From positions 808,100 through 872,099 of the forward strand of contig RPFO01000692.1 of the NCBI GenBank assembly GCA_009746045.1: a stretch of 64,000 bases of DNA, in the 5' to 3' direction. The position numbers and the translations under genes were made by a program. The first letter of the stretch is position 1; every line of letters starts with the position of its first letter. This stretch comes from Mesostigma viride. Lineage: Eukaryota > Streptophyta > Mesostigmatophyceae > Mesostigmatales > Mesostigmataceae. Shown here one piece after another: positions 11,621 through 54,743 of the stretch. The notes under the pieces were generated by a model. The model was given only the letters and a program-made list of their open reading frames with translations, had not been told where the DNA came from and ran no database searches.

Positions 11621-12268
11621 ATTTAGATGAACGCGGATCAGTGAGTTTCTGGTCTTCCCAAGATGTGATGAATGGAGCCATGGTTTCAACCAGCGGCTTT
11701 TAACCTTTACGTACCACAGTTGCCTCACTACCCTGTGGTCACTAGCCTGAGGCGGCAGCACCCACGGACGGTGTTGGGAAAAGACGCTTGGCCACTGCTG
11801 TGTCCGAGCCTTTCTAGGTCTCACCATTGCTGCCAGGCCTTGCACGCCTTGGCAGGTCCGCCACTGTCAATTTCCTTGGTTGCATCAATCCAGGACGTCT
11901 GTCCTTCCATGAATGACAGTAACGCTCTGGATTTATCCGTCATGACAAGTACCCGTCCATCCCAGGCCTGCAGGACTGCCAGTCCTGAAGTCCTGTGACA
12001 TTCTTGGTACCATCAACCAATATTGACCACAGTACCTCCTAGTGACAGTCGGTCCTGTGACACGTAACGTGTGATGGTTCACCCAACACTGCCACGTGCC
12101 CTGTCCCTCACGTGTCCTTAGTCCTGGTACTGCTGTAGCGTCCGGCGGCATTACTTCGGGACTTGATAACTCTCAAGTTCCTTGTCCAAATGAGGCGTTT
12201 AGCACGGCGTTGGAAAGGCCACTTCAAGTATGACATGCTTAGCATATTGCATCACCAATATGCTAACT
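11621..12268 (-). repeat. 3' LTR of M2
   Basis: 648-bp direct repeat of 21791-22434. On the element strand it begins AGTTAGCATATTGG and ends GTTCATCTAAAT. It carries an extra four bases near 11711 relative to the 5' LTR. A short inverted pair AGCATATTG/CAATATGCT sits at its start. Confidence 0.93.
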
Positions 12269-12291
12269 CCAACCCTTTCTTGTTTTGGAGC
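12269..12291 (-). promoter_or_regulatory. Polypurine tract of M2
   Basis: On the element strand, CCAAAACAAGAAAGGGTTGG directly precedes the AGTTAG start of the 3' LTR. The same purine-rich block ending in TGG before AGTT is seen in M1, M3 and M4, which supports its role as the plus-strand primer. Confidence 0.7.
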
Positions 12292-12510
12292 TGCAAGCTT
12301 CACACCATGACCAACCCATTCCTTGCTGCCTTGTGAAATGGACACCTGGTTACCCTGGACTTATAATAAGCCTCATGAGCACCCCTTTTGCCACCTTAAT
12401 GGTATCCTCTTTTAGGGATCTATGGTTCAACCCTGCCAGCTGATCATTAACTTGACCTGCAGGTCATCCCCAACCCTTTCTTTTGCAACTGTACCTTGGC
12501 TTGGGCTTAA

Positions 12511-14227
12511 CTCGTCGTCTGTCCCTGGTCCTCTACGGAGGACTGAGTTGAACTCAGTCCTCTCTAGAGGACCGAGTTTTTGGGTTTCGTAGAAAACTCG
12601 CCACGGTCAGAATGTTTGTCAAAAAAATTCTCTCAAAATTTATTCAAATACTACGTGAAAAGATCTTTCTTGGACATATTTTTGGGATTTTTTTGGATTT
12701 GGTATGAGCTAAATGTACGGTCAAAGTACAGGTGGTAAGGGTACTTTTCCACGTGAAACGCGAGTTCCGGAAATGCACGACCTAGCCATGGCGGCTCGCG
12801 CCCATGCATGCAGTTTACGTTTGCGGACGAGTTAGCTGTCCAAACTCAGGAAATAGATTTAACATGCCCTAAAGATGATAAAAATCAATTTTTAGCTCGC
12901 GGGGATGCGATTTACCCGGTGTCGGCACTGTTCTTGCTGGAAAAATCTGCGATAAGGCAGGTCGACGGAATTGATGACGGCGCTTGCTTTCCGGCGCAAT
13001 TTCAATGGCTGATAGGTTTCTTTCTACATTTTAACATGCATTGTATTAGAATAAATTGAGTGACAGTATAGATTTGATGATTTCGACCATTCTGTCACGT
13101 CATGGTCTATGTGCCGAAGAGTGCCACTTTTGCGGGCACCGCCTGGGCCAAGGTAACGCCAGCCGTGCCAGGTAAAGCCGGATAATCGTTGCCTCTTCGT
13201 TCCTTGATGTTCGTACATGAGTTTAAGCTTGCGAGGCGTTGTCAGGTTCAGGTCTTGATGCTGTTTCTTGACCGTTGCCTGCCCCTCTCTAAAACCCCCT
13301 TTTCAGATGATGTTAGCAGGCATTTGCCTTAACCCAGTGTAGTTGTGCAGGGTTTTAGGAGCTGTGCAGGTTTAAACACCTTCGTAGATGTTAGTTATTC
13401 TTTTGCTACGTTCATACTGCATGATTGTGTGGCCACGGGCTGCGTCAAGGGTGCATTCAAGCTTTTACGGGTGAGTGAAAAGTCTTGGTGACAAACCACT
13501 GCCATCATGTGCCAGCAACTATGTTGGCCACATCATGGCAAGGCAAAACAGTTATAGCCATATCTATTGTTGTTAGAAACAATGGAAATATGCTTAACCT
13601 ACCCATTATATTGGTGGTTGACACTTATAACATAACCCTTTGTTGGTAGGTATCCAAGCCCATTCCCTACATGCATGCATAGGCTCTCACTACATGATAA
13701 GGTATGATATACCTGAAGTATGATGATGCAAGTGTGTTGTCCTGTAATGCTTGAAGGGAAATGAGTTGATTGGGATGGTTGGTGGCCACGGTATTGTGTA
13801 GTATGACCGCACTTACATGCTAGCAAAGTTAGCAAAAGCCCCATTCCTCTCCTGAGGACTGAGAGTTTTTTAATTGTTTCAGGCAGTTGCAGTGGCCAAA
13901 TTGAGCCCAGTTTTTTGCCACGTTTCAAGAACTATATTGTTTACATGCCTATATTTTTTCTTCATGCACCAGGATTTGATTGAATTTTTCCCACTCGTTC
14001 TTATCCCGAAAAATGCAAATTCGCGAGCGGTGCCCAACGTCCGTGTAATTTTCAGGTGTTCGGGTCAAGTTTTCACATATGAAGTATTTTTGCCAACAAA
14101 ATGACATCTAGTACACCCCCGATCCACATCAAAACATTTGGGATGGACCCCCCACCTAGTCGCTACACGCGGTTGAAAGTTGTCAACTCAGTCCTCCTGT
14201 GAGGACTGAGTTGGGACAGACGACGAG
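12511..14227. mobile_element. Non-autonomous DNA transposon with TTAA target duplication
   Basis: The 15-bp terminal inverted repeats CTCGTCGTCTGTCCC (12511) and GGGACAGACGACGAG (ending 14227) are perfect. They are flanked by TTAA on both sides (12507-12510, 14228-14231). TTAA duplication is characteristic of piggyBac and some Sola elements. Close inside each end is a hairpin built from CTCAGTCCTC/GAGGACTGAG (12537-12580 and 14183-14213). The 1.7-kb body has only short open frames (for example 12808-13059 and 13874-14104) and no recognisable transposase. It lies in the 3' UTR of M2. Confidence 0.85.
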
Positions 14228-14231
14228 TTAA

Positions 14232-14734
14232 AGGAGGATATTGAATATTCCTTAGGCAACATATCCTGGATATCTGAATGAGAGGCCCTGACTACAGGAA
14301 ACGTATTACAGTGAGTTCCTGGTCTTCCCAGTTATCACTGGCGCCCGTTTCATGGCGCCCGCCCCGAGCGTTCCAGGCATCATCCATCCAAATGTTCACC
14401 AATGGAAACCACTTCAACACCACTGTGCCACTGCTTGATGGGGAGCCCATGTCATCACTGGGTGTTAAAGCCCAGGAGTCATACATACCAGGCTGTGGCT
14501 CAACTAGGGAATCGAACCCTACCCCAGAACCCCAGGTTAAACTTAACCTGGTCACATGACAGACAACAAGAGAGATTGGCATACAACATGATTATGTTTT
14601 ATTATAGAACATCCACCAAAACCAATGTTGAGTGTTCCCAGTGGACCAGCCTGCACCAGCAAGGCCCAACTGTCAGGTTACAACACCATAATATCCAAGG
14701 TTGTCACTTATTCACAGCTAAAGAAAACTAAACA
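14232..14734 (-). other. M2 3' UTR segment with tRNA-like T-arm
   Basis: No gene. On the element strand, GTAGGGTTCGATTCCCTAG (about 14505-14525) forms a perfect 5-bp T-stem with a TTCGATT loop, followed by TTGAGCC, like the 3' half of a tRNA. A similar tRNA-like block lies in the 3' UTR of M4 (about 53367-53395). No 5' half was found, so it is not a tRNA gene. Confidence 0.4.
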
Positions 14735-15545
14735 AGAGATATATATTAAAAATATAATTACTTACAGCAGAGTGAAATCACTCAAACCAAAGCAAACGCC
14801 CAGCTATAAACCTATATACAGAGCCATGTCAAAGCTCTATACTACGATAAGACCAATGGAAACGCCTAACGGGAGGAACCTAATAGCCCTGCTGCACCGC
14901 AAAATCAGCCCGCGTACGGCGGAGCATGATGTCAGCCATGGCCTGAGTCAGCGCCACCGACAAGCGCTGACGCCAATATGACGTCCAGGTCCGCGCCGAC
15001 CATGGGGCCCGCTGGCCCTCCAGGTCCAGCCGGTCCTCCCGGAGCCGGCAACACTCCTTGAAGAAGGCGGAGGTCAGGGGCCCCATGGCCCCAAACTCCT
15101 CCAGGACAAAGGGCACCACACGATGGTGCCCGACGTCGCCGTAGGCCAGGAGCTTGGCCCGCTCCGCCCGGTCCGCCGTGTAACCTGCCGTGAGGGAGGC
15201 CCCAGCCACGTGGCTAAGAGCCAAGGGCCGCGCCACCGAAACGTCAATAAGCAGATGCCGGCCACCCCCCTCAAAGTCCAGCACCACGATGTCAGGCCGG
15301 TGGTTGGGGGAATAGAAGGCAGCGCCATCCGCATCCTCGGACCGGATGTTCGCGTGGGGGAAAACCGACCGAATCATGGCGAGCACCACCGTCAGGAGGA
15401 CAGTGTGCAAATACAAATACCAATTCTGATTCTGTTGGCCCCCCATGCAGGCAAGGTAGTGAGTCCCCGTGGGATCCAGCGGCTGCCCACAGCTACCACA
15501 AGGCCGCCCGGCCGGAACAAGAGGCTGCGGGGCAAATAGCTGGTG
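14735..15545 (-). mobile_element. 5'-truncated LINE insertion (copy B)
   Basis: Minus-strand insert consisting of the last 188 codons of ORF2 (14880-15446), a short upstream extension, and a 140-bp 3' UTR ending in a TATATAT-type tail near 14735. A GAGATATATA motif lies at both edges (about 14731 and 15549), compatible with a target duplication. Its 3' UTR is repeated at 8640-8815 and, in part, at 15559-15648. Confidence 0.8.
14880..15446 (-). pseudogene. LINE ORF2, C-terminal domain
   Basis: Open for 188 codons to a TAG at 14880-14882. Characteristic blocks are HRPDIVVLDFEGGGRHLLID and VSVARPLA, then RAERAKLLAYGDVGHH, VVPFVLEEFGAMGP, FFKECCRLREDRL and SYWRQRLSVAL. This is the conserved domain that follows the RT in a group of LINEs common in algae and other protists, where it contains a restriction-endonuclease-like pattern (D...D-F-E...D-V). 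The RT itself is lost by 5' truncation. The M at 15446 is internal, not a true start. Confidence 0.75.
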
Positions 15546-15655
15546 CCGGAGATATATATTAAAAATATAATTACTTACAGCAGAGTGAAATCACTCAAAC
15601 CAAAGCAAACGCCCAGCTATAAACCTATATACAGAGCCATGTCAAAGCCGGAGAT
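15546..15655 (-). mobile_element. Very short LINE 3'-end insertion (copy C)
   Basis: About 90 bp of the LINE 3' UTR (15559-15648) flanked by GCCGGAGATATATA on both sides (about 15544 and 15649). This looks like a 14-bp target-site duplication around an extremely truncated LINE insert. Confidence 0.75.
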
Positions 15656-15868
15656 ATATATACAAACAACCTGGAAGAACTCTCAACATGGCCTGCCCTG
15701 TCATGGCCTAACTGCCCGAGGCCAAAGGCATCCCACTGTGCTAATCCTTTACAGGAAGAGCTTGCTCCTGTTGAGCCTTCTACCTGCTTGGTGACAGGTA
15801 GGCTACCTGTTGCCCTCCCCCCTGGGGACAACAGCACTGGTCAGCCACCAACTGGCAAAGGCTGGACT

Positions 15869-18800
15869 TCAAGTCCCACCAGAAAAGGGGTACATGAGCC
15901 CTTTGAGCACAGGGTATTGTAGCTCAGCCTTGCTCTCCAGCTTGGTGAGGGCGTCTGCTGGGTTGTCAACACCAGGCACATGTTCAAGATGAGCAAGGTA
16001 AGACATCTCCTTCAGCAACAAATAATCCAGATCCCTGCTCCTGGCGAGCTGTCTGTGCACAAACTGCACCATGCCCATGCTGTCTGTCTTGACCAGTGTG
16101 TGCAGCTGCAAGCTACAGGAAGCTACCTGACAGAGCTGGTAGAATAACTCCCTGAGGTAAAGAGCAGTGTGTAGCCCCTCACATATTGCCCTGCACTCAG
16201 CAATGTCACTGCTGGGCGTCACCCTGTTCTGTAACCTACTGTACCAGCTGACCAGAGAAGTGTGCTCCTGTTGTAGTGTAATGAGTGCTGCTGCCCTACC
16301 CCTGACATCCGTCACCTTCCTGCTGTCCATGGAACTGTCCACAAAAAGCACCATGTTGAGTGGTTTGTACAAGTCCACAGCTGCCAGTATGAGTGGAGGT
16401 GAGCTCCTGACAGACTCAACCACCTGCTCTGCCCCTACCTCAACCAGCTGAGCATCTGTGAGCCTACTCAGCACCAACAAATCTGGGGCACAAATGCTAG
16501 CTAGCCAAGCCAACATTCCCCTGATTGTGGCACACCTGGCCTGGGTAATGGGCTGCTGGAGGGCATCAATGATCTGCTGAGGATAGTTGTTGCCACCCTC
16601 CATCTTGATAAACCAAGTACCTGCCCTCTTGATCAGCGTGGCCTGCATTCCACAAAACACCATGGGCTCATCCTGCTTCATGTGCTGGACCTTTCCTAAC
16701 TCAAACCTCTTCTGGATCTTGGACAGTACTGAATCCACCCACTCAGGAGGCCCTAAAAGGTGCAGGTCATCTCCATGCAGAGATGCAAACACAGGCAACC
16801 CTTCATGAGTACTCTGGAACAAGCAAGGATCAACTGGAGACACAGTAAAGCCACAGTGAGTTTTCAGAAACTTTTCCAGGCTCTTTCTCCAGATGATAGG
16901 GCTGGACCTGAGACCCTCCAAACCCTTGAGTATTCTGAGATATTTTGACTTGATCTCTGCTCTCCACACCTTGGGCACTGTTACAAAGAAGGGAGGGATA
17001 TCACGCCACGTCTCCTTGGCCTGCTCCACATCACCCTTGAGAAAAGCCCTCTTGAAATCAATCAGCACAGAGCTGTACGCAATGCCCTTGACCAGGAAAG
17101 ACAGATATATACACAGAACAATCCTCCAGGTATCATGCAGCATCCCAGGCGTATACAACTCCTCATCTGTCAGCTCCCCCGTGCCATGGTACTCAGTCAC
17201 AACTGGCCTCACATGTGGCACCTGCACACCGTCTATCTCCTTCAGCTTGAGCACAAACAAGAGCCTTAGCAACTGATGCTCCCTGGGCAACTCATCCACA
17301 GGCTCAGCACAGTTAGACACTATCCAGTCATGCCCACTGGAGACAAACCCTAGAATCCATGCCTTAGCCATCTTGGGGCTTTGCATCAACTCTACCAACT
17401 GGTGCCAGGAAATAGGACTGTGACCAGCAATCTGGTACTTGTGCACCCCCAAGTCCCGTGGATCTAGGGTGGTTGGGATGATCAACAAGTCCTCAGCAAT
17501 GGGCTCCTTGCCTTCAGGCCCCACACTCTGCTGCCCCTTCACAGCCTTGACTGCCACAGCTAGACCCTTGGAGTAGTGATATCTCTGGAGGGGCAAACTG
17601 CCATGACCTTCTAGTGCAAGCTCATCTGCTGACAGAGTCACTCCTGGCATGCACAAGAAATTCTGGCCCAAAATGGCAGGCCCCTGGTACCCTTCCACCA
17701 CACAGAACGCAGTGGGGACACCCAGGATAGGCACAGTCACTTCCCCTAGGATCTTCATTGTTACAGTGCCCGTAAAGTCACTCACTGCCCTGCAGCCAGC
17801 CTTATTCACCTTCAGGCCCTGAGCATCCTCCACCCTGATGATAGACACCTCTGAGTTAGTATCCACTTCTAGGGTAGCAGCCCAGCAAGAACCCCATTCA
17901 GTCAACTTAGATACCTTGGGATCCTTGTGCTTGTTGAACATGAGCGACCGGACAATGTCTGCCATGAGTGGCCTCTTGGACCCTGGTGCAGGCCCAGCCC
18001 CCGTTGGCTCCACCACAGGTGATGCAGTTGCCTCCTGCACCTCATCATCATCAGAGGGATAGCCACCTCCCACGTCAGTGACAGGCACATCAACTACCTG
18101 GTCCTTAACCTGGCCCTCCAGCCAACACTGGGGTCCAGGCCCGTCTGCAGGCCAGATTGCATGTGGCTTGCGTTCCTTGACGTTGGCCCAGCTCAACCTG
18201 TAAACATGCCTGGGATTACTCTCCAAGGCCACAAGGCAGGAACGATTGGCATCTTCCACACAGGTCACCACCCCGTTCTGCCACTTGCCCCTCTTGCCCT
18301 GCATTGATGGCTCCTTCCACATTCTGACCTTCAGCCCCACCTGAGGCCTCAGCACATTCCAGCCCCTATCCTTGCGTCTCAACTGAGCAAACACCCTGTC
18401 TGCTTTCCTCAAGCAAGCCTGGACCACTTCCTGGGCTAGCATCCCAAACTGCAGTGCTACAGGATTGACAGCCACCCCGTCATAATAGTAGTTTATTCTG
18501 AGGTTCAACTGTTCTTCCACCTGCCTGGTCCACACTGCCCTCTCCAAAGCAGATGCTACCAGTGGCACCTTAGGTTCTGCCAGCACTACGGTCTTGACCT
18601 CCCTGATGGATCTCTCCACAGCACCTTGCTGTCCATGGCTCTCCCTGGGCGTGACCAGCAGCTTGCATGGCAGTTGCTCCTGCTGTGACAGTAGGCACTC
18701 AAACTGAATATCAGCCTGTACTGTCTTGTACACCCCAAAGCCTGGTAAGAGAGTCTGCAAGCCCAGCAGCAGGGTATTCCCCTTCATATCTGGCAGAATC

Positions 18801-19408
18801 TGGAGCAGCCTGTACCTGCTAAATCTGTCCACTGCCACCAAAATGTATAAGCCCCTGATATGCTGGACGTCTACCTGGATGTCCCCCTTCTCCCTGGCAG
18901 GCTCCCTAGCATGGGACCTTGGCTTCTTGGCAGCATTCTCCTTACAAGCACATTGCTCAGCTGCAGCCCTGCATGCTTCCCTCAGTGGCTCATCTCCAAT
19001 CTTCCAACCAAACATCTCAGCCATGGCTGTGTGACCAAAGATATTGTGCAGCCTGCGTCCAGCATCCGTGTAGCTCAGTTGCCTAGCCAGATTACGCACC
19101 TGGGAAGACGCCTGGACGGGCCCTGCGTGTGAGGACGCAACATCCACCTTCTGCATCTTGGATCCAGAGGACCCAGCAGACCCTCCCAGCAGAGCATCTA
19201 GGCTCCCAGAGCCAACCCTGTCTGGGGACCCTCCACCTGTTGACAGTTGAGGGGATTGTTGTGCTGCAGCATGCATGCAATCTTGTGGAATGAGAACATC
19301 AGTACACCCCTGGTGCTGATCAGAGGTGGCACCCTGCCCAGATTTATTTACATGTGAAGCTGTGTCCCCACAGGGTGTCTCACTATGTACACGGGACTGC
19401 TTCACTAG
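15869..19408 (-). CDS. Pol polyprotein of M2 (integrase, protease-like, reverse transcriptase, RNase H)
   Basis: A fully open 1179-codon frame directly following the gag UGA (see 19402-19411). Domains: integrase with RLHNIFGH (HHCC histidines, about 120) and catalytic D, D, E in IQVDVQH (about 174), VQADIQFE (228) and GAVERSIRE (260), then a C-terminal RMWKEPSMQGKRGKW region (about 365). The retropepsin-like domain LEVDTNSEVSII (about 510) with GPAILGQNFL comes after integrase. RT follows with SVLIDFKRAFLKG (778), LKGLEGLRSSPIIW and FASLHGDDLHLLG (872). Copia-type RNase H has LFVDSSMDSRK (1019), SSDIAECRAICEG and VKTDSMGM, ending near LEHVPGVDNPADALTKL. The order INT-PR-RT-RH and the DTNS and HGDD motifs depart from standard Copia. 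It replicates element RNA into DNA and integrates it. Confidence 0.92.
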   Translation of the reverse strand, partial: LVKQSRVHSETPCGDTASHVNKSGQGATSDQHQGCTDVLIPQDCMHAAAQQSPQLSTGGGSPDRVGSGSLDALLGGSAGSSGSKMQKVDVASSHAGPVQASSQVRNLARQLSYTDAGRRLHNIFGHTAMAEMFGWKIGDEPLREACRAAAEQCACKENAAKKPRSHAREPAREKGDIQVDVQHIRGLYILVAVDRFSRYRLLQILPDMKGNTLLLGLQTLLPGFGVYKTVQADIQFECLLSQQEQLPCKLLVTPRESHGQQGAVERSIREVKTVVLAEPKVPLVASALERAVWTRQVEEQLNLRINYYYDGVAVNPVALQFGMLAQEVVQACLRKADRVFAQLRRKDRGWNVLRPQVGLKVRMWKEPSMQGKRGKWQNGVVTCVEDANRSCLVALESNPRHVYRLSWANVKERKPHAIWPADGPGPQCWLEGQVKDQVVDVPVTDVGGGYPSDDDEVQEATASPVVEPTGAGPAPGSKRPLMADIVRSLMFNKHKDPKVSKLTEWGSCWAATLEVDTNSEVSIIRVEDAQGLKVNKAGCRAVSDFTGTVTMKILGEVTVPILGVPTAFCVVEGYQGPAILGQNFLCMPGVTLSADELALEGHGSLPLQRYHYSKGLAVAVKAVKGQQSVGPEGKEPIAEDLLIIPTTLDPRDLGVHKYQIAGHSPISWHQLVELMQSPKMAKAWILGFVSSGHDWIVSNCAEPVDELPREHQLLRLLFVLKLKEIDGVQVPHVRPVVTEYHGTGELTDEELYTPGMLHDTWRIVLCIYLSFLVKGIAYSSVLIDFKRAFLKGDVEQAKETWRDIPPFFVTVPKVWRAEIKSKYLRILKGLEGLRSSPIIWRKSLEKFLKTHCGFTVSPVDPCLFQSTHEGLPVFASLHGDDLHLLGPPEWVDSVLSKIQKRFELGKVQHMKQDEPMVFCGMQATLIKRAGTWFIKMEGGNNYPQQIIDALQQPITQARCATIRGMLAWLASICAPDLLVLSRLTDAQLVEVGAEQVVESVRSSPPLILAAVDLYKPLNMVLFVDSSMDSRKVTDVRGRAAALITLQQEHTSLVSWYSRLQNRVTPSSDIAECRAICEGLHTALYLRELFYQLCQVASCSLQLHTLVKTDSMGMVQFVHRQLARSRDLDYLLLKEMSYLAHLEHVPGVDNPADALTKLESKAELQYPVLKGLMYPFSGGT

Positions 19409-19411
19409 TCA
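19402..19411 (-). promoter_or_regulatory. Gag-pol junction: in-frame UGA in readthrough context UGA-CUAG
   Basis: On the element strand the sequence is GATCAGAAG-TGA-CTAGTGAAG. The gag frame ends at TGA (19409-19411), and the next codons CTA-GTG-AAG open straight into pol in the same frame, with no other interruption. UGA followed by CUAG is the strongest known stop-readthrough signal in cellular and viral genes. This suggests that a minority of ribosomes read through to make Gag-Pol. Confidence 0.75.
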
Positions 19412-20732
19412 CTTCTGATCAGACTGCCCCTTCTTCTTGTTTGGGCAATCCCTCTTCCAGTGACCTTCCTTGCCACAAGCAAAACACTTGCTCTTGCCAG
19501 ACCCTCCCCCTGGGGCCTTGCTGTCCTGCTTGTTCTGGTTGCCTGAGGCCTGATTGTTATTCTGCCCCTGGCCACCACCCTTACCCTGCTGATGGCTGTT
19601 ACGGTTGCCAGACTGGTTCCCCTGATTCTGGTTCCCCTGCTGACCTCCTCCACCACCCTGGTTCTGCTCCTTCTGGGCCTGCTTCCTTCTCCTGCTACCA
19701 TACCGTGTCCCAGATGGGGTACGGTTCTTGCCCTGGCTAGCCTGAGACGCTGACCCTCCCTGAGAACTGATACCCTTGCAGGTAGGGACCCGGGTCCTGA
19801 AGTTTAGTATCACACGCTTCAGAGCCCCCCAGGTGCCATCAGTGAGATCACAGAGCTGCCTAGCAGTAGCCCTACCTTCCTCTGACAAGCCCATCTTATC
19901 AAAGAAGTGGTCTGCTGCTGCCCTGACTGTCACACTGAAGCCCTGCTTCTTGCCTGCCTCCACGATCAACTCAAACCTGGCCAGCTCAGCAGCCACCTCA
20001 CCCTTGATCTCAAACTCATCAAATTCTCTCTTCTTTTCCATGGTGAGATTGTGAACCCTGTCAGAAAACTCCTCCTTGATGTCATCTAGGAACTGTAGCC
20101 AAGTGTGCCCCTCTTTCAGAGCATGCCTAGCCATGTCATTGACCCTTTCAGACGACCCCTTGTTTGCGGTGGAAGAGTGAAACACCCTGACAATATCCAC
20201 ACCTGCTGCGACAGAGCCCACGACTAGCTTCATGTCATCAAGCCATTTATCCAGGTTGTCTTGCTTCAGGGAGGGTTGAGCGCTTTCTGCCCATTCATGA
20301 CTGTCACAGCATCAGAAAATGGACGGGTGCCAGGCAACACACTCCCCACACGCACTGGTGGTGCCTGGGGAGGGTCAATCCTAGCCTCCAAACGCTCGGG
20401 CAACATACCAGACACCCTATCGTGAACAGCAGCTTGCTTTGCAGCACGCACACCTGGGGTGACGATGGCGTCCTCCTCACCAGGCGTTGTGAGCACCACT
20501 GCTCCGTAGGTCGCCTGGCACGCTTGACTTTCTCCGCCTCAGCTTGCCCATCACGCCACCGCTTGTGTGTTCTCCCGGCTCTGGGGTCCATCTCTGGGAT
20601 AGGTTGCCCAGCTGGCGCCTCCACGCCCCTCTCCTCCATCGCCTCCCCTTCCTCTCTGGCGATGTCCTCCTCTGCCGTTCGCTCCCGTTGCTCCTCGAAT
20701 GTCGCCGCACCCCGGCTTGCCCTCCTAGGCAT
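19409..20732 (-). pseudogene. Gag of M2 (zinc knuckle; two frameshifts)
   Basis: Likely start at ATG 20732 (MPRRASRGAATFEEQRERTA), an acidic and basic charged N-terminus. The frame must shift near 20505 and again near 20275 to reach the conserved body: SLKQDNLDKWLDDMKLVVG, then HTWLQFLDDIKEEFSDRVHN and a capsid-like helical region to about 19790. A Gln/Asn/Gly-rich linker follows, then a single zinc knuckle CFACGKEGHWKRDC (about 19445-19490) and the end SDQK. Two frameshifts in a short N-terminal part suggest recent decay or sequence errors; the last 275 codons are open. Gag supplies the particle shell and RNA binding. Confidence 0.75.
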
Positions 20733-20800
20733 TATATACAATGGCTGCGACCAACTTTGCAACAAGAAAACAGCAAACTCTCCACCTATCCTCCACCCCC

Positions 20801-21767
20801 TCAAGCCTCGTTTTCAGACGAAGCTTCTCCTGCAACCGGTGCAGGTGCTGGCTCGTGGAACGGTCCCTCCACCGGATTCAATGGCTGCCCCTGGTCGTCG
20901 TGAGTAGGCACAGGCCTAATAACCACCGGAAGCCTCAAACCATACGCGTAATCACGTATCCAGCGAGAACGCCCCCACCTCAGCAAATGAGCCTCACCTA
21001 AACCAACGTTGTCGTCAATGTGGTAGCGATTAAGCTCGTCCCGCTGCGCCTGCTCACGGCCCTCCTGAGAGCCGTCGCCCTCGTGACGCCTCTGGGCCGG
21101 CTGTACTACCGCCCCTGCTGGCTGATCTACGAAGTCGTAGAAGGCGTCGTCGGCTGAGACCTCTCGACCGCCAACCACGTCGACAGTCAAACTTAGCTGG
21201 TTTAACTCTCGGCGAGAATGTGGAGTATCCCGACTAGTGTAGATGGAGAAGGGATTAAGAGTAATGAAGACACGATCAGCAGCGCCTCTGGTCAACTCTA
21301 AGACAGAGTGCGCCAGATTCTGGCACTCTGCCACCAACGCCTGCGTACTGCCACGAACGATGGCCTCCCGCCTGTCCCGGGCGACCTGCACCACGTTTGG
21401 CACGCCGGTGTAGTCGTCCCCAAGGCGGAGATTGGCGACAAGGTCGTTTATCTCTCGGGCACCCCCGAGGCTTATGGCAATTATCTGCAAAAGCAGAGTG
21501 ACCACCTGCTCAAACGCGAATGCGTTTGTGTGGCCAGCCCGCCAAGACGCTGGCAGCCTTCTGATGATTTCCGCGAGGTCCTCGCGAAATCTCAGCAGCT
21601 GCTCGGCTGCTCCTCGGACGTACTCGCCCGGCGCCGACACCGCTCGAATATTTCGGCGCACTTCCTCCGAGTCCTCGTGCCCTCCTGCGGGTACTGGACT
21701 GGACGCCGCTACCGTTGCTGCACGCGCAAAGGTGTTTGTCCTAGCTTCAGAGTCCGAATTCGACATA
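20801..21767 (-). CDS. Additional ORF of M2 upstream of gag, unknown function
   Basis: An intact frame of 322 codons starting 23 bases inside the 5' LTR boundary (ATG 21765-21767, MSNSDSEARTNTFARAATVA) and ending at 20801, 68 bases before gag. Segments include AAEQLLRFREDLAEIIRRLP, FAFEQVVTLLLQIIAISLGG (a hydrophobic helix), LVAECQNLAHSVLELTRGA and LGEAHLLRWGRSRWIRDYAY, with a Pro-rich acidic C-terminus. No zinc knuckle, protease motif or envelope-like signal peptide is seen. It may be a capsid-like first gag domain or an accessory protein. M1 and M3 have no obvious equivalent. I do not recognise a family. Confidence 0.6.
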
Positions 21768-21790
21768 TCCGTCGACCAGACTGTAATACG

Positions 21791-22434
21791 ATTTAGATGA
21801 ACGCGGATCAGTGAGTTTCTGGTCTTCCCAAGATGTGATGAATGGAGCCATGGTTTCAACCAGCGGCTTTTAACCTTTACCACAGTTGCCTCACTACCCT
21901 GTGGTCACTAGCCTGAGGCGGCAGCACCCACGGACGGTGTTGGGAAAAGACGCTTGGCCACTGCTGTGTCCGAGCCTTTCTAGGTCTCACCATTGCTGCC
22001 AGGCCTTGCACGCCTTGGCAGGTCCGCCACTGTCAATTTCCTTGGTTGCATCAATCCAGGACGTCTGTCCTTCCATGAATGACAGTAACGCTCTGGATTT
22101 ATCCGTCATGACAAGTACCCGTCCATCCCAGGCCTGCAGGACTGCCAGTCCTGAAGTCCTGTGACATTCTTGGTACCATCAACCAATATTGACCACAGTA
22201 CCTCCTAGTGACAGTCGGTCCTGTGACACGTAACGTGTGATGGTTCACCCAACACTGCCACGTGCCCTGTCCCTCACGTGTCCTTAGTCCTGGTACTGCT
22301 GTAGCGTCCGGCGGCATTACTTCGGGACTTGATAACTCTCAAGTTCCTTGTCCAAATGAGGCGTTTAGCACGGCGTTGGAAAGGCCACTTCAAGTATGAC
22401 ATGCTTAGCATATTGCATCACCAATATGCTAACT
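21791..22434 (-). repeat. 5' LTR of M2
   Basis: 644-bp direct repeat of 11621-12268. On the element strand it starts AGTTAG at 22434 and ends CTAAAT at 21791. The bases after it (CGTATTACAGTCTGG) contain no TGG-initial primer site adjacent to the LTR. Confidence 0.93.
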
Positions 22435-32485: not shown

Positions 32486-32966
32486 AGTTAGAATACGAAC
32501 GACCGACTTGGTACAATGCTTGAGAACACAGAGTGCTGAGAGCAATGAATTGCTTGGTTCATTAGAAAATAGGTTTACCCTTTATCAACGTTCCTCTCAC
32601 TGGCTGCGCCGCCAGTGACCGTTGGGTGCAGACCGTTGGCCCGAGGCCGCACGATGACAGGTAGCAGTCTAGTCACTGCATCGTGTGATCACAGATCAAT
32701 GCACGCTGCAGTACGGTCCCTATCTAGGATTCTCTAGTACCGTCCAATGACAGGACACTACGTATACTGGGTACTGACATCTGTCACGTACCCCAGTACC
32801 CAAAGTACCTATCTAGGGAAACGTATGCGACTCGACTAGCATTCCTATCTGCATAGCCCACGTGGTATTTATATTCACATACCAACGTAGGTTTACAAGG
32901 CTTATTCATACGTTGTATTCACAATGCCTTTGAGACTTAGTCTACAGCAAAGCATGGAGACTAACT
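32486..32966 (-). repeat. 3' LTR of M1
   Basis: 481 bp, begins AGTTAGTCTCC at 32966 on the element strand and ends TTCTAACT at 32486. Upstream on the element strand lies AAACAATACTGG, the position of the polypurine tract, though it is less purine-rich than in M2-M4. Confidence 0.93.
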
Positions 32967-33339
32967 CCAGTATTGTTTTATTATTTATTTCTTAATGCAG
33001 GTCTGCACCCCAACATTATTGTTATTGTTTTTAAGTTGATTAGGGGTACAAAAGAGACATGGCTGGTTGAGCCAGGTTGGTTACAGCTGGCTGTTCTGGC
33101 CAGGTGTTATATTGCACATTAAATAAGGTGTACACAGCTGGCTGGTTTGGCCAGTTATTGGAGCACACATTAAGTAAGTGTATACAAAGCTTGTGTCCTC
33201 AAGCTGCAAATGGATACAAAGCTGACCTAGCCAGCACTCACACCCTACAACGAATGTGTTGAATGTTATGGCGCCCAGCAGCTATCGCTGTGGTAAGGGG
33301 GTGTGGTGGTTGTGTACTGTGCTATGGCCAGTCATTTAT
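32967..33339 (-). other. 3' UTR of M1
   Basis: No gene. A GGCTGG(TT/CT)(TG)GCCAG block followed by TGCACATTAA or GCACACATTAA occurs twice about 70 bp apart (33092-33125, 33140-33175). Confidence 0.5.
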
Positions 33340-34490
33340 TCAAACACTGACTCTGATATCATAGGGGTTCATGTTCTGAAAGAGGAGCTGGTACTGTTGG
33401 CCAGCAGCATCCCGCAGCTTCGTTAGAGCGTCTGCTGGGTTGTCCTCATCATCCACATGAGTCCAGCTGGAAAAATAGGTGGCCTCCTGTTTGAGGATCA
33501 CCCAATCCAAGTCAGTGTGGACAGCAGCAGAAACAGATTTCTTGGTTAGAAAACTGATCACAGAAAAGCTGTCAGTGTAGAGATGTGAGATTACATTGCA
33601 TGTGCTGCCTGCCTGGGTTTGTAGCCAGGTGAGCATGTGCTGCAGGGAACGAGCATGCAATGCAGCAGACACCACAGCACGACATTCAGCTGAGTTGCTG
33701 CTGCCAGGTTTTCTGCGGTGTAGCCTGCTGTACCAGGAAGTGAGGGACATGTAATCTGACCTGTTGGTGAGAAAAAACAGCCCTGATTCCCGTGCCCCCA
33801 TCTGATTGATTGTTCTGCTCTCCATGGAGCTGTCCATGACACATTGGATGTGGATGTCTTCCATCAGATTCAGGCCATGGAGGATGAGGGGGGGACAGTC
33901 TTTGACCAACTTCCTGATGTGACTGCATTTTATCTTGACTAGAACATCATGGGTGACCCTGCTGATGACAGCTAAGGGAGCCCCACAGATGGCTGACCAC
34001 CACCCCAGTTTGCCCTGAACAGTGGCACACATGTGTAAGGGGAGTTAGTTGTCCTGCAGCAGATCTAGACAATCTTGGATATATTCTGCAGGAGGGGAGA
34101 GAGAGCAGACCCACTGATCTGGCTGCCTATGCAGCTGCAACATGATGCCACAGAACTGGATGGGGGTTGTGCTCAATTCCACCTGTTTGCCAATCTCATA
34201 TGATTCCTGGACCTGCTGAATAAAGGTTTCCACCTCAGCTCTAGGCCCACAAATGAGTTGGTCATCTCCATGCCACACAAAGAACAGCAGTCCAGAGGGG
34301 GTGGGTACAACAAAAAAGCATGGGTCCAGGTCATCATACGTGGCCTTGAGCTTTTTGAATACTTCCTCTGCTGAGTCTCTGAAAATTTTTGGGGCACTGA
34401 CAAGCCCTTCCACCCCAATGTTGATGATAAGGTGGGGCTCATCAATGTAAGGTTTCCACACAGCTGGGGTGTCTACCACGTACACCTTCC
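33340..34490 (-). pseudogene. M1 pol, distal part: RT C-terminus and RNase H
   Basis: The frame continues the RT interrupted at 35373. It encodes VYVVDTPAVWKPY, then LLFFVWHGDDQLICGP (RT catalytic box with HGDD in place of YVDD) and PIQFCGIMLQLH. A frameshift or stop near 34040 separates it from the last part, which carries RNase H motifs: VMDSSMESRTINQMGARESG (first Asp), NSAECRAVVSAALHA (Glu) and HLYTDSFSVISFL (Asp), ending at DEDNPADALTKLRDA. Copia-type RNase H removes template RNA. The damage plus the upstream insert make this copy inactive. Confidence 0.85.
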
Positions 34491-35372
34491 AGTTACGTTA
34501 AATAGTGCCGGAACCCTTTGCCGCCTGAGGCAAATCGGTCCGTAACACTATTTTGCCCGGAATAACCACTTCCGAGCACCCAAGTTAATTCGGCCGAATT
34601 AACTTGGGTGCTCGGAAGTGGTTATTCCGGGCAAAATAGTGTTACGGACCGATTTGCCTCAGGCGGCAAAGGGTTCCGGCACTATTTAACGTAACTAAAA
34701 CCTGGCCTCGTGGAGGGGGGACGAAGAGCCCGAGACATCCGCCTAGGCCGCTGAGCACGCACCACTAAATGCGCCGGAGCTGCCTCAGTGAGGATTCGAA
34801 CCCCTGACCTCCAAGGTGCACGGGTTTTAGTTACGTTAAATAGTGCCGGAACCTTTTGCCGCCTGAGGCAAATCGGTCCGTAACACTATTTTGCCCGGAA
34901 TAACCACTTCCGAGCACCCAAGTTAATTCGGCCGAATTAACTTGGGTGCTCGGAAGTGGTTATTCCGGGCAAAATAGTGTTACGGACCGATTTGCCTCAG
35001 GCGGCAAAAGGTTCCGACACTATTTAACGTAACTAAAACCCGTGCACCTTGGAGGTCAGGGGTTCGAATCCTCACTGAGGCAGCTCCGGCGCATTTAGTG
35101 GTGCGTGCTCAGCGGCCTAGGCGGATGTCTCGGGCTCTTCGTCCCCCCTCCACGAGGCCAGGTTTTAGTTACGTTAAATAGTGCCGGAACCTTTTGCCGC
35201 CTGAGGCAAATCGGTCCGTAACACTATTTTGCCCGGAATAACCACTTCCGAGCACCCAAGTTAATTCGGCCGAATTAACTTGGGTGCTCGGAAGTGGTTA
35301 TTCCGGGCAAAATAGTGTTACGGACCGATTTGCCTCAGGCGGCAAAAGGTTCCGGCACTATTTAACGTAACT
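34491..35372. mobile_element. 882-bp triple-palindrome element, 5-bp TSD CTTCC
   Basis: Three 206-bp near-perfect palindromes (34491-34696, 34829-35034, 35167-35372), each AGTTACGTTAAATAG...CTATTTAACGTAACT, are separated by two 132-bp spacers that are reverse complements of each other. The whole unit is therefore one palindrome centred at about 34931. CTTCC flanks it on both sides (34486-34490, 35373-35377). The spacers contain a tRNA-like GGTTCGAATCC B-box (35061-35071; inverted 34792-34802). There is no ORF. It lies inside the RT reading frame of M1, and the frame is continuous once it is removed with one CTTCC. The AGTT...AACT ends match the LTR ends of the host clade. Confidence 0.9.
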
Positions 35373-35377
35373 CTTCC

Positions 35378-37063
35378 CTTTCCACACAGATTCAGCCTTT
35401 TCTGGGTCCCCCCTGAGGAAGGCCCTTTTAATATCAGTGGCTTTGCAGACATAGTCTTGGCCTGTATTGAGGTTGTGTAGGAATAGGGAGAGCATGATCC
35501 TGAGTGAGGTTTGTTGCAACCCAGGTGTGTAGGTTTCCCCTTTTGGCAGTGTGGATGTCCCCTTTAATTCTGTGACACATGGTCTGGCATGGAAGATTGG
35601 GGAGCCCACTTTTTGTGGTTTTTGTTTGAGAACAAATTTTAATCTGAGCTTTTTGGCTCCCTCTGGCACGTCCCATGAAGGGGTGACAGGAGGTTTGTAT
35701 TGAGGGTTTTTGGGGTTGGGCAGGACCCATTCCTGCCTGGCTTGGTGGACAATGGCCATCAGCCACTTGGTAAACCCTTTTTGTGTTTTGCATTCTTGTA
35801 TGACGTGGGAGATTTGGTGGGGTGAGTGCATGGCTATGTCCCACTTACCCAGCCCAAAGGCTGAGGGATGGAGGAACTGGCTGTGCACTAACTTGTCCAG
35901 ATCAGGGATCTCCCCTGGTGCATACTGAGTGTTGACTGCCTTGATGACAGCATCCATACCAGGGACAATACTGGAGAGAGGGATTTTAAAGTGGTCCAGA
36001 GGAACTGCACCCACCCCTGTGACACTGAGCTCATTAGCTGAGATAAGCACCCCAGGATAGGATACAAAAGGTTCCCCCAACAAGGTGTTACCAGAGTACC
36101 CCTCCACCACCTGGAAGGGTGTCTGAATACCAAGTATAGGGAGCATCACCTGTCCCACTACATCCAGTGAGCTTTGGCCTGAGAAATCCTGCACCCGTGC
36201 CCAAAATGAAGGTGCAATCTCAAGACCAGGGATGGCTTGTGCACTGATCACACTGACCTGTGCCTGAGTGTCTATTGCCAGGGTCCAGGGGTCCTGACTA
36301 GTGCACACAGCTGAGACTTTTGCCAACCCTTCGGCCACAGCAGCTTGTTGCTTATGTGACCTGTGTAATGCTTGCAAGGCGACTGCCAATCTTGACCTCA
36401 GAGCGGGAGGGTTGGCAGACAATTTGGTGCCTTGGGGCTGAGCTAATGCTTCCAACCCAGCTACCTCGTGCCTGGTTAAGCAATCCCCAGGTTGTGAAGT
36501 GGGCTTGGCTTCACTGAGGGTGGAAGGGTTCACAGAGGGTGCTGTGGTGCTGTCAACAGCAGTAATTGGTGGCTCAGGGCTACTGCTGGGCATGCTGGAG
36601 TTGCCAGATAGAAGTAGTGAGTCCATGCTTAAAGACTCTTCCCCAGGCACGTCTGCCATGGGAGAATAATACTTCTTAATTCTATGACAGCTCACCCTGT
36701 GACGCTTCCCATTGATATTGTGCTTGACCTCCACGGTCTTGCTGTTTTTGGTAAATCCACGGATGGTAACTGGACCTAGCCAGGTTCCAACCTTACCAAA
36801 GCTGTTTTCCTTGTAATAGAGAACTTGATCACCTTTTTGGAATACTGGCCTGGGATGGGTTTTATCTTTTTCTGCCAGTTTTGCTGAGGTTTGTGCACGT
36901 GCAGTGTTGTACAGTGCTATCACCTCTGGGGGATATACACCTGCCTGCAGGCCTGCTGGGATTACTTCACCCCACTTGGCATGCAAGACAGGTCTCATGT
37001 TTAGGGTTGTGCACATTTCATGACACCAGAGTGCCCTGTCACAATAGACCCCTGAAGTAGCAA
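35378..37063 (-). pseudogene. M1 pol, middle part: integrase C-terminus, protease-like domain, RT N-terminal half
   Basis: An open frame of about 550 codons. The integrase tail has MRPVLHAKWGEVIPAG, YYKENSFGKVGTWLGPVTI and HRVSCHRIKKYY. The retropepsin-like domain follows as LAIDTQAQVSVISAQAIPG (DTQA in place of DTGA) with QVVEGYSGNTLLGEPFVSYP. A linker and the RT thumb/finger region come next: KLRLKFVLKQKPQ, VTELKGTSTLPKGETYTPGL and ATDIKRAFLRGDPEKAESVW (first RT aspartate). It ends at the CTTCC duplication, where the palindrome element entered. It shows directly that the protease-like domain follows integrase. Confidence 0.85.
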
Positions 37064-37745
37064 TGATCCTTGGAAGGATTTTTGGCTAGTAGGGTTTTGA
37101 CAGATCTGATGGTTCTTTCAATGACCCCCTGACCCTCATGATCTTCCAGCCCAGCAAACTCTATTGCTTCACACCCTTCCAGATCAGTCAGACAAGAAAA
37201 TTGTTGATCAAGCAAAATTCTGTCAACTGGGTAGAATCTGGGTAAAGCAATCATGAGTGCAACACGTAGCTGCCCTGCAGACATGCCAGGTAGGGGTTCC
37301 ATTACTGTGAACCTGGACCATGAGTCTTTTAGGATCAGGTAGGGTTGGACATCTTTGTTGATGTGCATCACATCCCCCACTATCATGCCTCTAGTGGTGG
37401 AAGGAGTTGCAGTATGCCATTTTTGAGGTTTGGGGCTATTGAACTGACATTCTTGACAGTGTTGTCTGGCCAGTTTGACTGCATTCCTGAGTTGTTTTCC
37501 CATGCTACTACCCCCCAGCCGTTTGGCCAGTTCCTCAGCCACTGTTTCATGACCCATGGCTAGGTGCAGCTGATGAGCAAGCTCCTTGATATCTATGGAG
37601 TTGTCAACAGTAGGGGTTAGTGCTTTTATGTAAGGTTCCAGGACAAGGTGTTGGGAGGACAGTAAGGTTGCTGCCTCAAAATCAATTATGCCCTGGCTGC
37701 CATCCCCAATGGTAATGAGATCATCATCCTCAGAGTATATGCAAG
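37053..37745 (-). pseudogene. M1 pol, proximal part: integrase zinc-binding and core domains
   Basis: The frame opens just after TGA near 37745, overlapping the end of gag in the -1 frame. It encodes SEDDDLITIGDGSQGI, then LAHQLHLAMGHETVAEEL and ARQHCQECQ (HHCC zinc-binding domain) and the integrase core with IVGDVMHINKD (D), ILLDQQFSCLTD (D) and GQGVIERTIRSVK (E). A single frameshift near 37062 separates it from the following part. No protease motif occurs between gag and integrase. Integrase inserts the cDNA into the genome. Confidence 0.85.
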
Positions 37746-38131
37746 GTGAGAGAACTCACATTGTTTTTGGTAGCGAGTCCTGTTGCACCGGCTGCCTGGA
37801 GGTCCCAGGGGATGACGTGCGTGCCAGCAACCAGGGCAGAGATCCACGTTGGTGTTCAGGGAGTCGTTGTTGGGGCAGTTGTCCCGAATGCGCCCCCTCT
37901 GGAAGCACCTCAGGCACCGTGGGCCAGGGTTTCCAGGTTGGTTGTTGTTGTTGTTGTTGTTGTTGTTTCCCTGCTGGGACCGATTGTTGTTGTGGTTCTG
38001 GCCCTGCTGGGACCTGTTGTTGTTGTTGTTTTGGCCCTGTTGGGACCTGTTGTTGTTATTGCCCTGCTGGGACCTGTTGTTGTTATTGTTGTTGTTGTTG
38101 TTGTTGTTGTTGGAGTTGCCATGCAGGGGCC
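37686..38131 (-). pseudogene. M1 gag, C-terminal part with Asn-rich linker and Cys clusters
   Basis: It continues the gag frame interrupted at 45567. LGPLHGNS is followed by a long Asn/Gln/Ser-rich, GTT-microsatellite-encoded linker (NNNRSQQG repeats), then CLRCFQRGRIRDNC (a zinc-knuckle-like CX2CX9C in which the usual His is Arg) and CPGCWHARHPLGPPGSRC. Stop at 37686. The last 60 bases overlap pol in the -1 frame. The altered knuckle may reflect decay or a variant fold. Confidence 0.75.
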
Positions 38132-38249
38132 CTAAGCACACCTGGAATTGTACTACATTTTTCAAATTGTACTTCAGTTTTGAAAGTTGCATTTTCATGC
38201 ATCTAAAGTTTCAACTAAAGTCTTTGAGGAAAAAAAAGTTCGTCGGCGG

Positions 38250-39330
38250 CCGTGGCACCGTTGCACCGTTGCACCGTTGCACCGTTGCACCTCAAATTGC
38301 ATATATGCACACACCTTTGCACATGCAACTGTTATCCATGGGATTTATGTAGGTGGATGGGTCATGCAAGAGTTACCTAGATGCTCATGACACCGTGCCA
38401 CCGTGGCGCCGTTGCACCGTTGCACCGTTGCACCGTTGCACCGTTGCACCTCAAATTGCATATAAACACACACCTTTGCACATAATGGTTATCCATTGGG
38501 ATTTATCAAGGGTAATGGGTCATGCAAGGGTTACCTAGACATGCTCATGACACCGTTGCATCGTGGCATCGTGCCACCGTGCCACCGTGGCACCGTGGCA
38601 CCGTTGCACCGTTGCACCGTTGCACCGTTGCACCTCAAATTGCATATATGCACACACCTTTGCACATGCAACTGTTATCCATGGGATTTATGTAGGTGGA
38701 TGGGTCATGCAAGGGTTACCTAGATGCTCATGACACCGTGCCACCGTGGCGCCGTTGCACCGTTGCACCGTTGCACCGTTGCACCGTTGCACCTCAAATT
38801 GCATATAAACACACACCTTTGCACATAATGGTTATCCATTGGGATTTATCAAGGGTAATGGGTCATGCAAGGGTTACCTAGACATGCTCATGACACCGTT
38901 GCATCGTGGCATCGTGCCACCGTGCCACCGTCGCACCGTGGCACCGTTGCACCGTTGCACCGTTGCACCGTTGCACCTCAAATTGCATATAAACACACAC
39001 CTTTGCACATGCAATTGTTATCCATGGGTTTTATGTAGGTGGATGGGTCATGCAAGGGTTACCTAGATGCTCATGACACCGTGCCACCGTGGCGCCGTTG
39101 CACCGTTGCACCGTTGCACCTCAAATTGCATATAAACACACACCTTTGCACATAATGGTTATCCATTGGGATTTATCAAGGGTAATGGGTCATGCAAGGG
39201 TTACCTAGACATGCTCATGACACCGTTGCATCGTGGCATCGTGCCACCGTGCCACCGTGCCACCGTGGCACCGTTGCACCGTTGCACCGTTGCACCGTTG
39301 CACCGTTGCACCGTTGCACCTCAAGTTGCA
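38250..39330 (+). repeat. CACCGTTG minisatellite arrays in a higher-order tandem repeat
   Basis: Runs of CACCGTTG (also CACCGTGC, CATCGTGG variants) end in CACCTCAAATTGCATATA, then ACACACCTTTGCACAT and TGTTATCCATGGGATTTATG-type sequence, then ATGGGTCATGCAAGGGTTAC. This roughly 150-160-bp block repeats about six times, with two alternating subtypes (TGTAGGTGGATGGG and TCAAGGGTAATGGG). Spacers are themselves repeats, so this is not a CRISPR array. Confidence 0.95.
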
Positions 39331-39789
39331 TATAAACACACACCTTTCCGTTTTTCCGCGTTTTCCGCGGCCCGGCACTGAACGCAAATGGTTTTCACCT
39401 TTGCGGAGTGCCTGATCAGAGCACACCTTTGCACATGCAATTGTTATCCATGGAGCCACCATGCCACCGTGCCACCGTGCCACCTCCACAACGGTATGAA
39501 AGTGCCAAAAAATGCCCTTATAAGCCCTACATGGAGCAAATTGAGTCCAAACATGCTAGATATTGGTAGGCAGCATGTCCAGGACACCAGTAGAAGGAAT
39601 TTGACTTTCCAGAATTTTCCGACATCGGTTGGTCTATTTTTGGCATGTCTATTTTTAGCAACTTTCCAGATTTTAATATAAACAAATACCATTTAGTATG
39701 CAAATAAAGAGCTCCTGGCCTGGCTATTTGCAGGTAGGCTAATGCTCATGTGTACCAACTGTGCACCAGGTCCCATGGTCATCTGACCT
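39331..39789. other. Interior of the 7.4-kb element, no gene
   Basis: Unique AT-moderate sequence with a further short CCACCGTGCCACCGTG run (39465-39483). No coding evidence. Confidence 0.5.
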
Positions 39790-40340
39790 CATTTGGTGAC
39801 AAACTGCCACCAAATGCTAGCAAAAACGCACTGTTTCACCACATCTCATTGCAGTTTCCATAGAAGGTGTGTTCAGTCGAGGCTGGAAATTTGCAATCAC
39901 ATTGCACATCATAAATGTAGACATGGCACAAAAAATCAGGTCCATCGTACTGTATTTGGTAACAAAATGCCACCAAATGCTAGCAAAAATGTGCGTTTTT
40001 CGCGTTTTTAGACACATTTCATGACAGTTTTCATACAAGATGTGCTCAGTTGGGGCTGGAAACTTGCAAGCATGTTAAATATCATCATTGTAGACATTGC
40101 ACAAAAATTCAGGTCCGTTGTACTTCATTCATTGACAGCTCGCTACCAAATGTGAGAAAAAATGTGCGATTTTTGCATTTCCGCCACATTTCTTGCAGTT
40201 TCCCATGCCAGGTGTGCTCAGTTGAGGCTGAAAACAAGCGCGCATGTTAATCATCATCATTTCAGACATTGCACAAAACTTAATTCAGGTCCATCAAGTG
40301 TCATTGGGTTCACTGGTCCATGCAACACCTGCCAGTTTCC
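39790..40340 (+). repeat. Degenerate tandem repeat of about 160 bp, three copies
   Basis: Units begin near 39805, 39965 and 40140 with (A)CCAAATG(CTAG/TGAG)(C/A)AAAAA, followed by GCAGTTT(C)CAT, GGTGTGCTCAGT and GGCTGGAAA. Substitutions between units are frequent, so the array is old. Confidence 0.75.
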
Positions 40341-41538: not shown

Positions 41539-42069
41539 TAAAGACCAAATGGTGGTGGCACGGAGTACAAAATTAATGGTGGTGGCACGCCGCCATTGTT
41601 GTTGTTGTTGTTGTGTCCCACGCCGCACACCGGTGGAGTACAATTTGGTGGTGGCACGGTGTGCCGGTGCAACGGTGCAACGGTGCAACGGTGCAACGGT
41701 GCAACGGTGCAACGGTGCAACGGCCAGTGATTGGCCCGTTGCTGATTTGCTGACATGCATCCTAATAAAAATTGGCCGCAAATTCGTCCGGTCGCACGTG
41801 GGCACAAGATTTGCGGCCAATTTTTACTAGGCTGCATATCAGAAAATCAGCAACGGGCCAATCACTGGCCGTTGCACCGTTGCACCGTTGCACCGTTGCA
41901 CCGTTGCACCGTTGCACCGTTGCACCGTTGCACCGTTGCACCGGCACACCGTGCCACCACCAAATTGTACTCCACCGGTGTGCGGCGTGGGACACAACAA
42001 CAACAACAACAATGGCGGCGTGCCACCACCATTAATTTTGTACACCGTGCCACCACCATTTGGTCTTTA
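41539..42069. repeat. 530-bp foldback (large inverted repeat)
   Basis: Two arms of about 240 bp are almost perfect reverse complements around a short loop near 41797. Each contains the CACCGTTG array, a (GTT)n/(AAC)n tract and GGTGGTGGCACG motifs. The centre holds a smaller hairpin, AAAATTGGCCGCAAA...TTTGCGGCCAATTTTT. It looks like an inverted duplication of a subterminal segment of the 7.4-kb element. Confidence 0.92.
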
Positions 42070-43400: not shown

Positions 43401-43402
43401 TG

Positions 43403-43469
43403 GTGGGGAGGGAGGGAGGGAGGGAGGGAGGGAGGGAGGGAGGGAGGGAAGGCATGACTGTGTGTGTGC

Positions 43470-43500
<31 letters not shown>

Positions 43501-43502
43501 TG

Positions 43503-43582
<80 letters not shown>

Positions 43583-43586
43583 TGTG

Positions 43587-43618
<32 letters not shown>

Positions 43619-43790: not shown

Positions 43791-43980
43791 TGTGCTTTTT
43801 ATTATGATGATTAGCTAAGTTACGTGTGTGTTGTTGATGTACATGTTGACGTTGTATCATGGGCGTGTGCCCCAAAGTCTGCCTTCCTGCAGTATCACAT
43901 AATATATCATCTAGATGTGTTGTTGGGAACCTGACTATATATCCCAAACTGGAATGGTTGACATTCAACTATGGGATGAA

Positions 43981-54738: not shown

Positions 54739-54743
54739 TCCTG

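Follow-up and report, generated by a model that had tools for sequence, protein, structure and literature searches.

In the alga Mesostigma viride, we identified a group of long terminal repeat (LTR) retrotransposons whose pol genes encode the integrase (INT) first, followed by a retropepsin-like protease domain (PR), reverse transcriptase (RT), and RNase H (RH). Four of its families (M1 to M4) are represented in the 64,000-nucleotide stretch of contig RPFO01000692.1 analyzed here, the whole of which we call the window. We file the group as a lineage with a Copia-type RT and a new gene order, neither canonical Ty1/copia nor gypsy. It is probably an autonomous, recently mobile LTR retrotransposon lineage of a Mesostigma-type alga, with a Gag-Pol polyprotein processed by the internal PR. 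Because pol order helps to define LTR superfamilies, a successful and diverged clade with the order INT-PR-RT-RH breaks the rule. Searches of an open-access library gave no description of this order; the remark in a first-pass annotation of the window that no described clade with it is known is supported within that scope only, which does not extend to subscription journals.

The order was read in the pols of M2 and M3, in that of the M4 relative P0002, in P0007/L035, which is the full-length pol of M5 (the fifth family, to which P0003 belongs), and in P0006/L036, an intact relative of M1. Motif mapping placed INT-PR-RT-RH in a single open frame in all five pols. In M2 pol, which is on the minus strand, the HHCC motif of INT lies at residues ∼118–155, with the second catalytic D at 232 and the E at 264; PR follows with its Asp at 515 (LEVDTNSEVS) and ILGQNFL at 578, and then come the HGDD of RT at 877 and RH from D1023 onward, in agreement with the order, coordinates, and residue numbers of the first-pass annotation. 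That annotation was also right in describing M3 pol as one intact frame of the same order. Its reading of the order in M1 stands as well, although the window copy is broken: INT is split over two frames, RT is interrupted by an insertion of inverted repeats (34491–35372), and a stop lies within RT-RH. For M4, only PR-RT-RH could be upheld: tblastn detected no INT core for it in the window, where the remnant starts in the C-terminal part of INT at ∼61961. P0002, which shares 47% identity with M2 and 55–71% with the M4 pieces, has the complete INT-PR-RT-RH. In line with that annotation, no protease was found between gag and integrase: no D[TS]G[AS] motif occurs upstream of the second INT Asp in any of the five pols, and at E up to 10 the gags of M2, M3, M5, and M1 gave no Pfam protease match. 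On these grounds we rejected the idea that a protease ahead of INT had been overlooked.

Table 1. Positions of the M1 to M4 elements and their parts in the window
Feature	Position	Strand	Remarks
M2 element, LTR to LTR	11621..22434	-	Contains two younger nested insertions; LTR pair and 5-bp target-site duplication GAACC (22435-22439 / 11616-11620)
M2 5' LTR	21791..22434	-	AGTTAG...CTAAAT
M2 3' LTR	11621..12268	-	
M2 leader open reading frame, 360 aa	20801..21883	-	5' of gag, no known family; open here, broken in 2/2 other copies
M2 gag, 274 aa from ATG	19409..20233	-	One CCHC zinc knuckle (Pfam zf-CCHC 1.8e-7); no protease domain found
M2 gag stop TGA CTAG (pol in the same frame)	19405..19411	-	Candidate programmed stop readthrough; identical letters in 2/2 other copies
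M2 pol, 1178 aa	15869..19405	-	Stop-free
M2 integrase	18161..19072	-	HHCC, DDE core, SH3-like C-terminus; pol residues ~112-415
M2 retropepsin-like domain	17570..17884	-	DTNSEVS...ILGQNFL; pol residues ~508-612
M2 RT, RVT_2 type	16661..17308	-	HGDD; pol residues ~700-915; RVT_2 8.6e-7
M2 RNase H	15926..16363	-	Pol residues ~1015-1160
M2 nested insertion	14747..15650	-	11-nt flank overlap; absent from 2/2 other copies
M2 second nested insertion	12511..14227		Absent from 2/2 other copies
M3 element	54744..60485	+	LTRs 54744-55244 / 59985-60485, identical; target-site duplication TCCTG (54739-54743 / 60486-60490)
M3 gag	55269..56225	+	
M3 pol	56183..59767	+	-1 frame
M3 retropepsin-like domain	57728..58027	+	DTQAQVS; INT-RT interval
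M4 remnant	53615..61961	-	INT C-terminus, PR, RT, RH; split by nested M3
M1 element	32486..48508	-	LTRs 48028-48508 / 32486-32966, AGTTAG...CTAACT; target-site duplication AACAT
M1 pol, broken	33343..37629	-	INT 37042-37629; INT C-terminus/PR/RT 35361-37016; RT/RH 33343-34476

The genome searched for copies comprised 439.9 Mb in 2243 contigs; the copy numbers are lower bounds, and those for M1, M2, and M3 count the window's own copy. M2 was found at no fewer than 39 scored places, and 33 of these hold full-length copies free of stops, which is far beyond chance. M5 occupies at least 65 scored places, 45 with the same frame of 1344 aa, and each of the 65 matches the Mesostigma viride gene model P0003 (jgi/Mesvir1) at 100% identity. 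For M1 (queried with a 552-aa piece) there were at least 79 scored places, two with TAG, and for M3 at least 44 rows, including nine that were full-length, 100% identical, and stop-free. At least four INT-first families are multicopy in this genome, and four have intact copies spread over many contigs. The displaced protease is thus real and common to successful, diverged families, and because the order is shared by diverged families it does not stem from a single rearranged copy, as the first-pass annotation had maintained. The order is probably old, because the RT-RH tree has long branches for M1 (1.36), M5 (1.0), and the M3 pair (0.89).

Relatives were sought by protein searches (matches among 7989, 7997, and 7993 scored candidates), and the matches listed include P0002, P0004, and P0014 (sources “ena”, “lgn”, and “jgi”) and the fragment P0015, labelled Alexandrium andersonii. 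P0004 is 97% identical to M4, P0015 64% to M2, and P0014 64% to P0002; the origin of P0002, P0014, and the Alexandrium P0015 is uncertain. Three entries labelled Prorocentrum lima are 100% (P0012) identical to M1 and 99.6% (P0016) and 81% (P0011) identical to M2. Horizontal transfer to this dinoflagellate was considered and rejected, as P0012 and P0016 at 99.6–100% identity look like cross-contamination between data sets, and for this reason the two were left out as a second species. P0017 (23%) and the Haematococcus P0018 (24%) fall outside the INT-first group, and no protease was seen behind their INT. Among viral contigs, patterns matched and no relative was confirmed.

As controls we used three related Copia families of the same genome (P0008–P0010, small alignments). 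They contain Pol_BBD (protease), gag_pre-integrs, rve, SH3_retrovirus, and RVT_2 in the usual order, with PR first in all three, and an ordinary frame with gag and Pol_BBD also lies within the window (30811–32376). Because the controls show the usual order, the unusual one is due to neither the method nor the genome. In two of these ordinary Copia families, L037 and L038, the active site of the protease reads DSAAS, and HVDD is present in the RT of both and of a third. When clade profiles were compared with Copia ones by hhalign, RT-RH aligned with E 1.8e-18 over 414 columns, but INT gave only E 0.48 over 5 columns and PR E 0.13 over 19 columns. RVT_2 was matched by four of the five clade pols (8.6e-7, 3.2e-4, 1.4e-4, and 0.014; all under the curated cut-off) and not by P0007, RVT_1 had no match at E up to 10 (M2, M3) or 1 (P0002, P0006, P0007), and Pol_BBD, gag_pre-integrs, and SH3_retrovirus were unmatched in all five. 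The earlier designation “Copia-like” therefore fits RT-RH but not INT and PR, which have neither a Copia alignment nor the Pfam Copia modules. Searching the PDB with RT-RH profiles yielded no RT match, for the clade and the Copia control alike. In a maximum-likelihood tree of RT-RH (12 rows, midpoint root, M1 and P0017 flagged as long branches), seven INT-first rows were on one side of a 100/100 branch, opposite the three Copia controls, P0018, and P0017; the INT-first order was seen in six of the seven, the P0014 row being an RT fragment.

Because INT and PR do not align to those of same-genome Copia, a protease that moved within a Copia element is one of two readings. The other is a mosaic origin, in which recombination between superfamilies placed an INT-PR block of retroviral/gypsy type ahead of a Copia-type RT-RH; we regard it as a serious possibility, if somewhat short of an even chance. 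Beyond the uneven hhalign results, it draws on the integrase. The last two catalytic residues are spaced D-x29/31-E in the clade versus D-x35-E in the Copia controls, and among PDB sequences 13 of the 14 matches of the clade INT were retroviral integrases (best 0.0013; lentiviral on top, weak), with no match to the Ty1 integrase at E up to 10, whereas the control INT matched the Ty1 integrase at 8.6e-21. The INT C-terminus of three of five families has a W-x-GP-x-T-[VI] motif, its GP dipeptide not followed by Y/F. The clade PR profile matched ASPRV1 first, while the Copia PR control matched no protease among PDB sequences, and the ILGxxFL-like letters at the end of the clade PR are of retroviral/gypsy type. 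However, the comparison set for INT and PR consisted of PDB sequences and same-genome Copia, and the controls were three related families of one genome in small alignments. The Copia INT in fact matches the foamy integrase (7.5e-8) better than any integrase is matched by the clade INT. A GPG-like INT C-terminus is present in some Copia-type elements of metazoans, and fast divergence could erase similarity to Copia.

Relocation within a Copia lineage, with the protease moved behind INT and all domains diverging together, would account for the clearly Copia-type RT-RH and the 5-bp target-site duplications (TSDs), and same-genome Copia families likewise have an active site without Gly (DSAAS in two of three) and HxDD in RT. 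We consider it conceivable though rather doubtful, as INT and PR have no detectable affinity to Copia and none of the five pols matched Pol_BBD, gag_pre-integrs, or SH3_retrovirus.

The nature of the PR can be addressed independently of its origin. Structure prediction had been chosen beforehand as the test of the earlier proposal that the DT(Q/N)(A/S) domain is retropepsin-like, and it gave a retropepsin fold for the domain in the INT-RT interval; all 50 structural matches listed were retropepsins, and we accordingly rejected another fold for the DT[NQK] domain. The weak first match to ASPRV1 aligned the PR Asp with the catalytic Asp of that protein, and weak matches class the clade PR as gag-asp/retropepsin type. 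Its active site reads DT[N/Q/K] rather than DTG in all six families, with Asp and Thr invariant. Known active retropepsins have DTG or DSG, with Gly as the third active-site residue, and catalysis is therefore not assured. The domain could accordingly have lost catalysis and serve RT as a dimerising structural part, with processing left to another protease or dispensed with, as N, Q, or K in place of that Gly might suggest. We lean against this explanation, although not strongly, for Asp and Thr are invariant, the PR is under strong purifying selection in the M3 lineage (the lowest computable ratio of nonsynonymous to synonymous substitution rates, dN/dS, there), Pfam searches of the pols and gags found no other protease, and two of the three same-genome Copia families also do without Gly.

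The LTRs begin and end with AGTTAG...CTAACT in M1, AGTTG...CAACT in M3, AGTTGG...GCAACT in M5, and AGTTAG...CTAAAT in M2, so that ends of the AGTT...AACT type (AAAT in M2), and not TG...CA, are a shared mark of the clade. TSDs of 5 bp flank three copies of M2 and one each of M1, M3, and M5, that of M5 being weak and inside a GGGT repeat; both ends were read in the two M2 copies outside the window, whose LTRs are the same and whose TSDs are CAAGC and CTGCC, versus GAACC in the window. The 5' LTR is followed by CGTATT in M2 (21790, minus strand), CGTACT in M3 (55245, plus), TGAATT in M1 (48027, minus), and TGTATT in M5 (L035, ∼750), and the gag ATG lies at most ∼25 nt after it in M1, M3, and M5. 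The 64-kb window holds no tRNA genes.

Judging from the letters at the gag-pol junction, members of the clade seem to reach pol by different routes. In M2, gag and pol share one frame and are separated by TGA CTA G, and the pol open frame is exactly 1179 codons in all 33 full-length copies, as expected from a stop just upstream; UGA CUA G is described as the high-readthrough motif in PMC12233894. The gag and pol frames of M1, M3, and M5 overlap, with pol at -1 relative to gag, and the M1 overlap contains GGGGGGG and GGGGGGT in the gag frame. We propose that the lineage works as other LTR retrotransposons do. Gag would be translated first and a minority of ribosomes would continue into pol, by readthrough of TGA-CTA-G in M2 and by a -1 shift in the overlap in M1, M3, and M5. 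The Gag-Pol polyprotein would then go into particles, where the internal retropepsin-like domain would dimerise and most likely cut it, if nowhere else then in the long and variable linker that separates INT from PR. PR may remain joined to RT as in foamy virus, yielding a separate integrase and a PR-RT-RH protein, and the integrase would join cDNA with AGTT...AACT ends to the target with a 5-bp stagger.

Several observations weigh against a lineage of autonomous elements with a working internal protease. Only the best of five PR models was confident (76.3 versus 51.7–38.6), just one of 375 Foldseek matches reached E 0.001, and sequence matches of the PR to known proteases are weak; by its residues, a DT[N/Q/K] domain may be one that does not cleave. 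Of the two selection comparisons, one had saturated synonymous divergence in the INT core. The stop-containing copy L041 reads DTL, and a single M5 INT read (L035, residue 334) has D for the third catalytic E (QGKVDR). No TGG primer site was seen after the 5' LTRs of M1, M2, M3, and M5, nor did the sequence behind the 5' LTR give a self-priming match, and the M3 and M5 overlaps lack a canonical X_XXY_YYZ slippery site. By comparison, an artefact of a rearranged or misassembled copy has virtually no chance of being correct, for although the window copies of M1 and M4 are broken, the copy data refute it and relatives occur in other data sets.

We do not class the clade as Ty1/copia because four tested features fail. 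With Ty1/copia (Pseudoviridae; P0008–P0010) it shares an RVT_2-type RT, Copia-type RNase H, HxDD in RT, and the 5-bp TSD that is usual for Copia, but Ty1/copia has PR before INT, D-x35-E, and the three Pfam modules that the clade lacks, and like most LTR elements has TG...CA ends. With Ty3/gypsy (Metaviridae) and retroviruses it shares PR before RT, the gag-asp/retropepsin type of PR, and the integrase core fold, with zinc-binding and SH3-like parts in retroviral order at a large root-mean-square deviation over the whole integrase, whereas the order of Ty3/gypsy is PR-RT-RH-INT with an RVT_1 RT. Foamy virus PR-RT also has a retropepsin joined to RT-RH (7o0g aligned over 723 columns), but its RT differs from the Copia-type RT of the clade, and its INT comes after RT. 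Gmr1-type gypsy elements have another shuffled order, PR-INT-RT-RH, with a gypsy RT. Troyka is likewise an LTR lineage that its terminal nucleotides distinguish, but its ends are CG...CG and its TSD is 3 bp, as opposed to AG...CT (AG...AT in M2) and 5 bp here, and it is placed as the sister of a group that includes gypsy and retroviruses (PMC12440569).

A more far-reaching proposal is a hybrid lineage of superfamily rank, with retroviral/gypsy-type INT and PR in front of a Copia-type RT-RH, its own LTR ends, a DD29/31E core, and a working DT[N/Q/K] PR-RT fusion. We offer it tentatively and think it on the unlikely side; if true, it would add a gene order to those of LTR elements and mean that pol modules recombine across superfamilies. 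The clade allows a direct test of such recombination, and it provides conserved retropepsins that lack the active-site glycine, together with integrases in which 29–31 residues separate the last two catalytic residues. It is easily missed by standard profiles, as Pfam scores for RT and INT are below cut-off or absent. According to PMC6947507, LTR elements make up 27.9% of the Mesostigma viride genome; the word “Copia” is absent from the main texts of PMC6947507 and PMC7027972.

M2 itself is flanked by identical direct repeats of 300 nt (7247–7546 and 26756–27055), the ends of an element spanning 7247–27055 that has a gag frame (8907–10460) with a zinc knuckle and a weak Retrotrans_gag match (0.011). 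The flanking stretches that were read showed no pol among their frames, and this element is perhaps gag-only. The leader open reading frame of M2 gave only chance-level Pfam matches. Within the first nested insertion of M2, an open frame (14880–15590, minus strand) has no Pfam match and presumably resembles the tail of a non-LTR retrotransposon. The insertion in the RT of M1 consists of nested, near-perfect inverted repeats.

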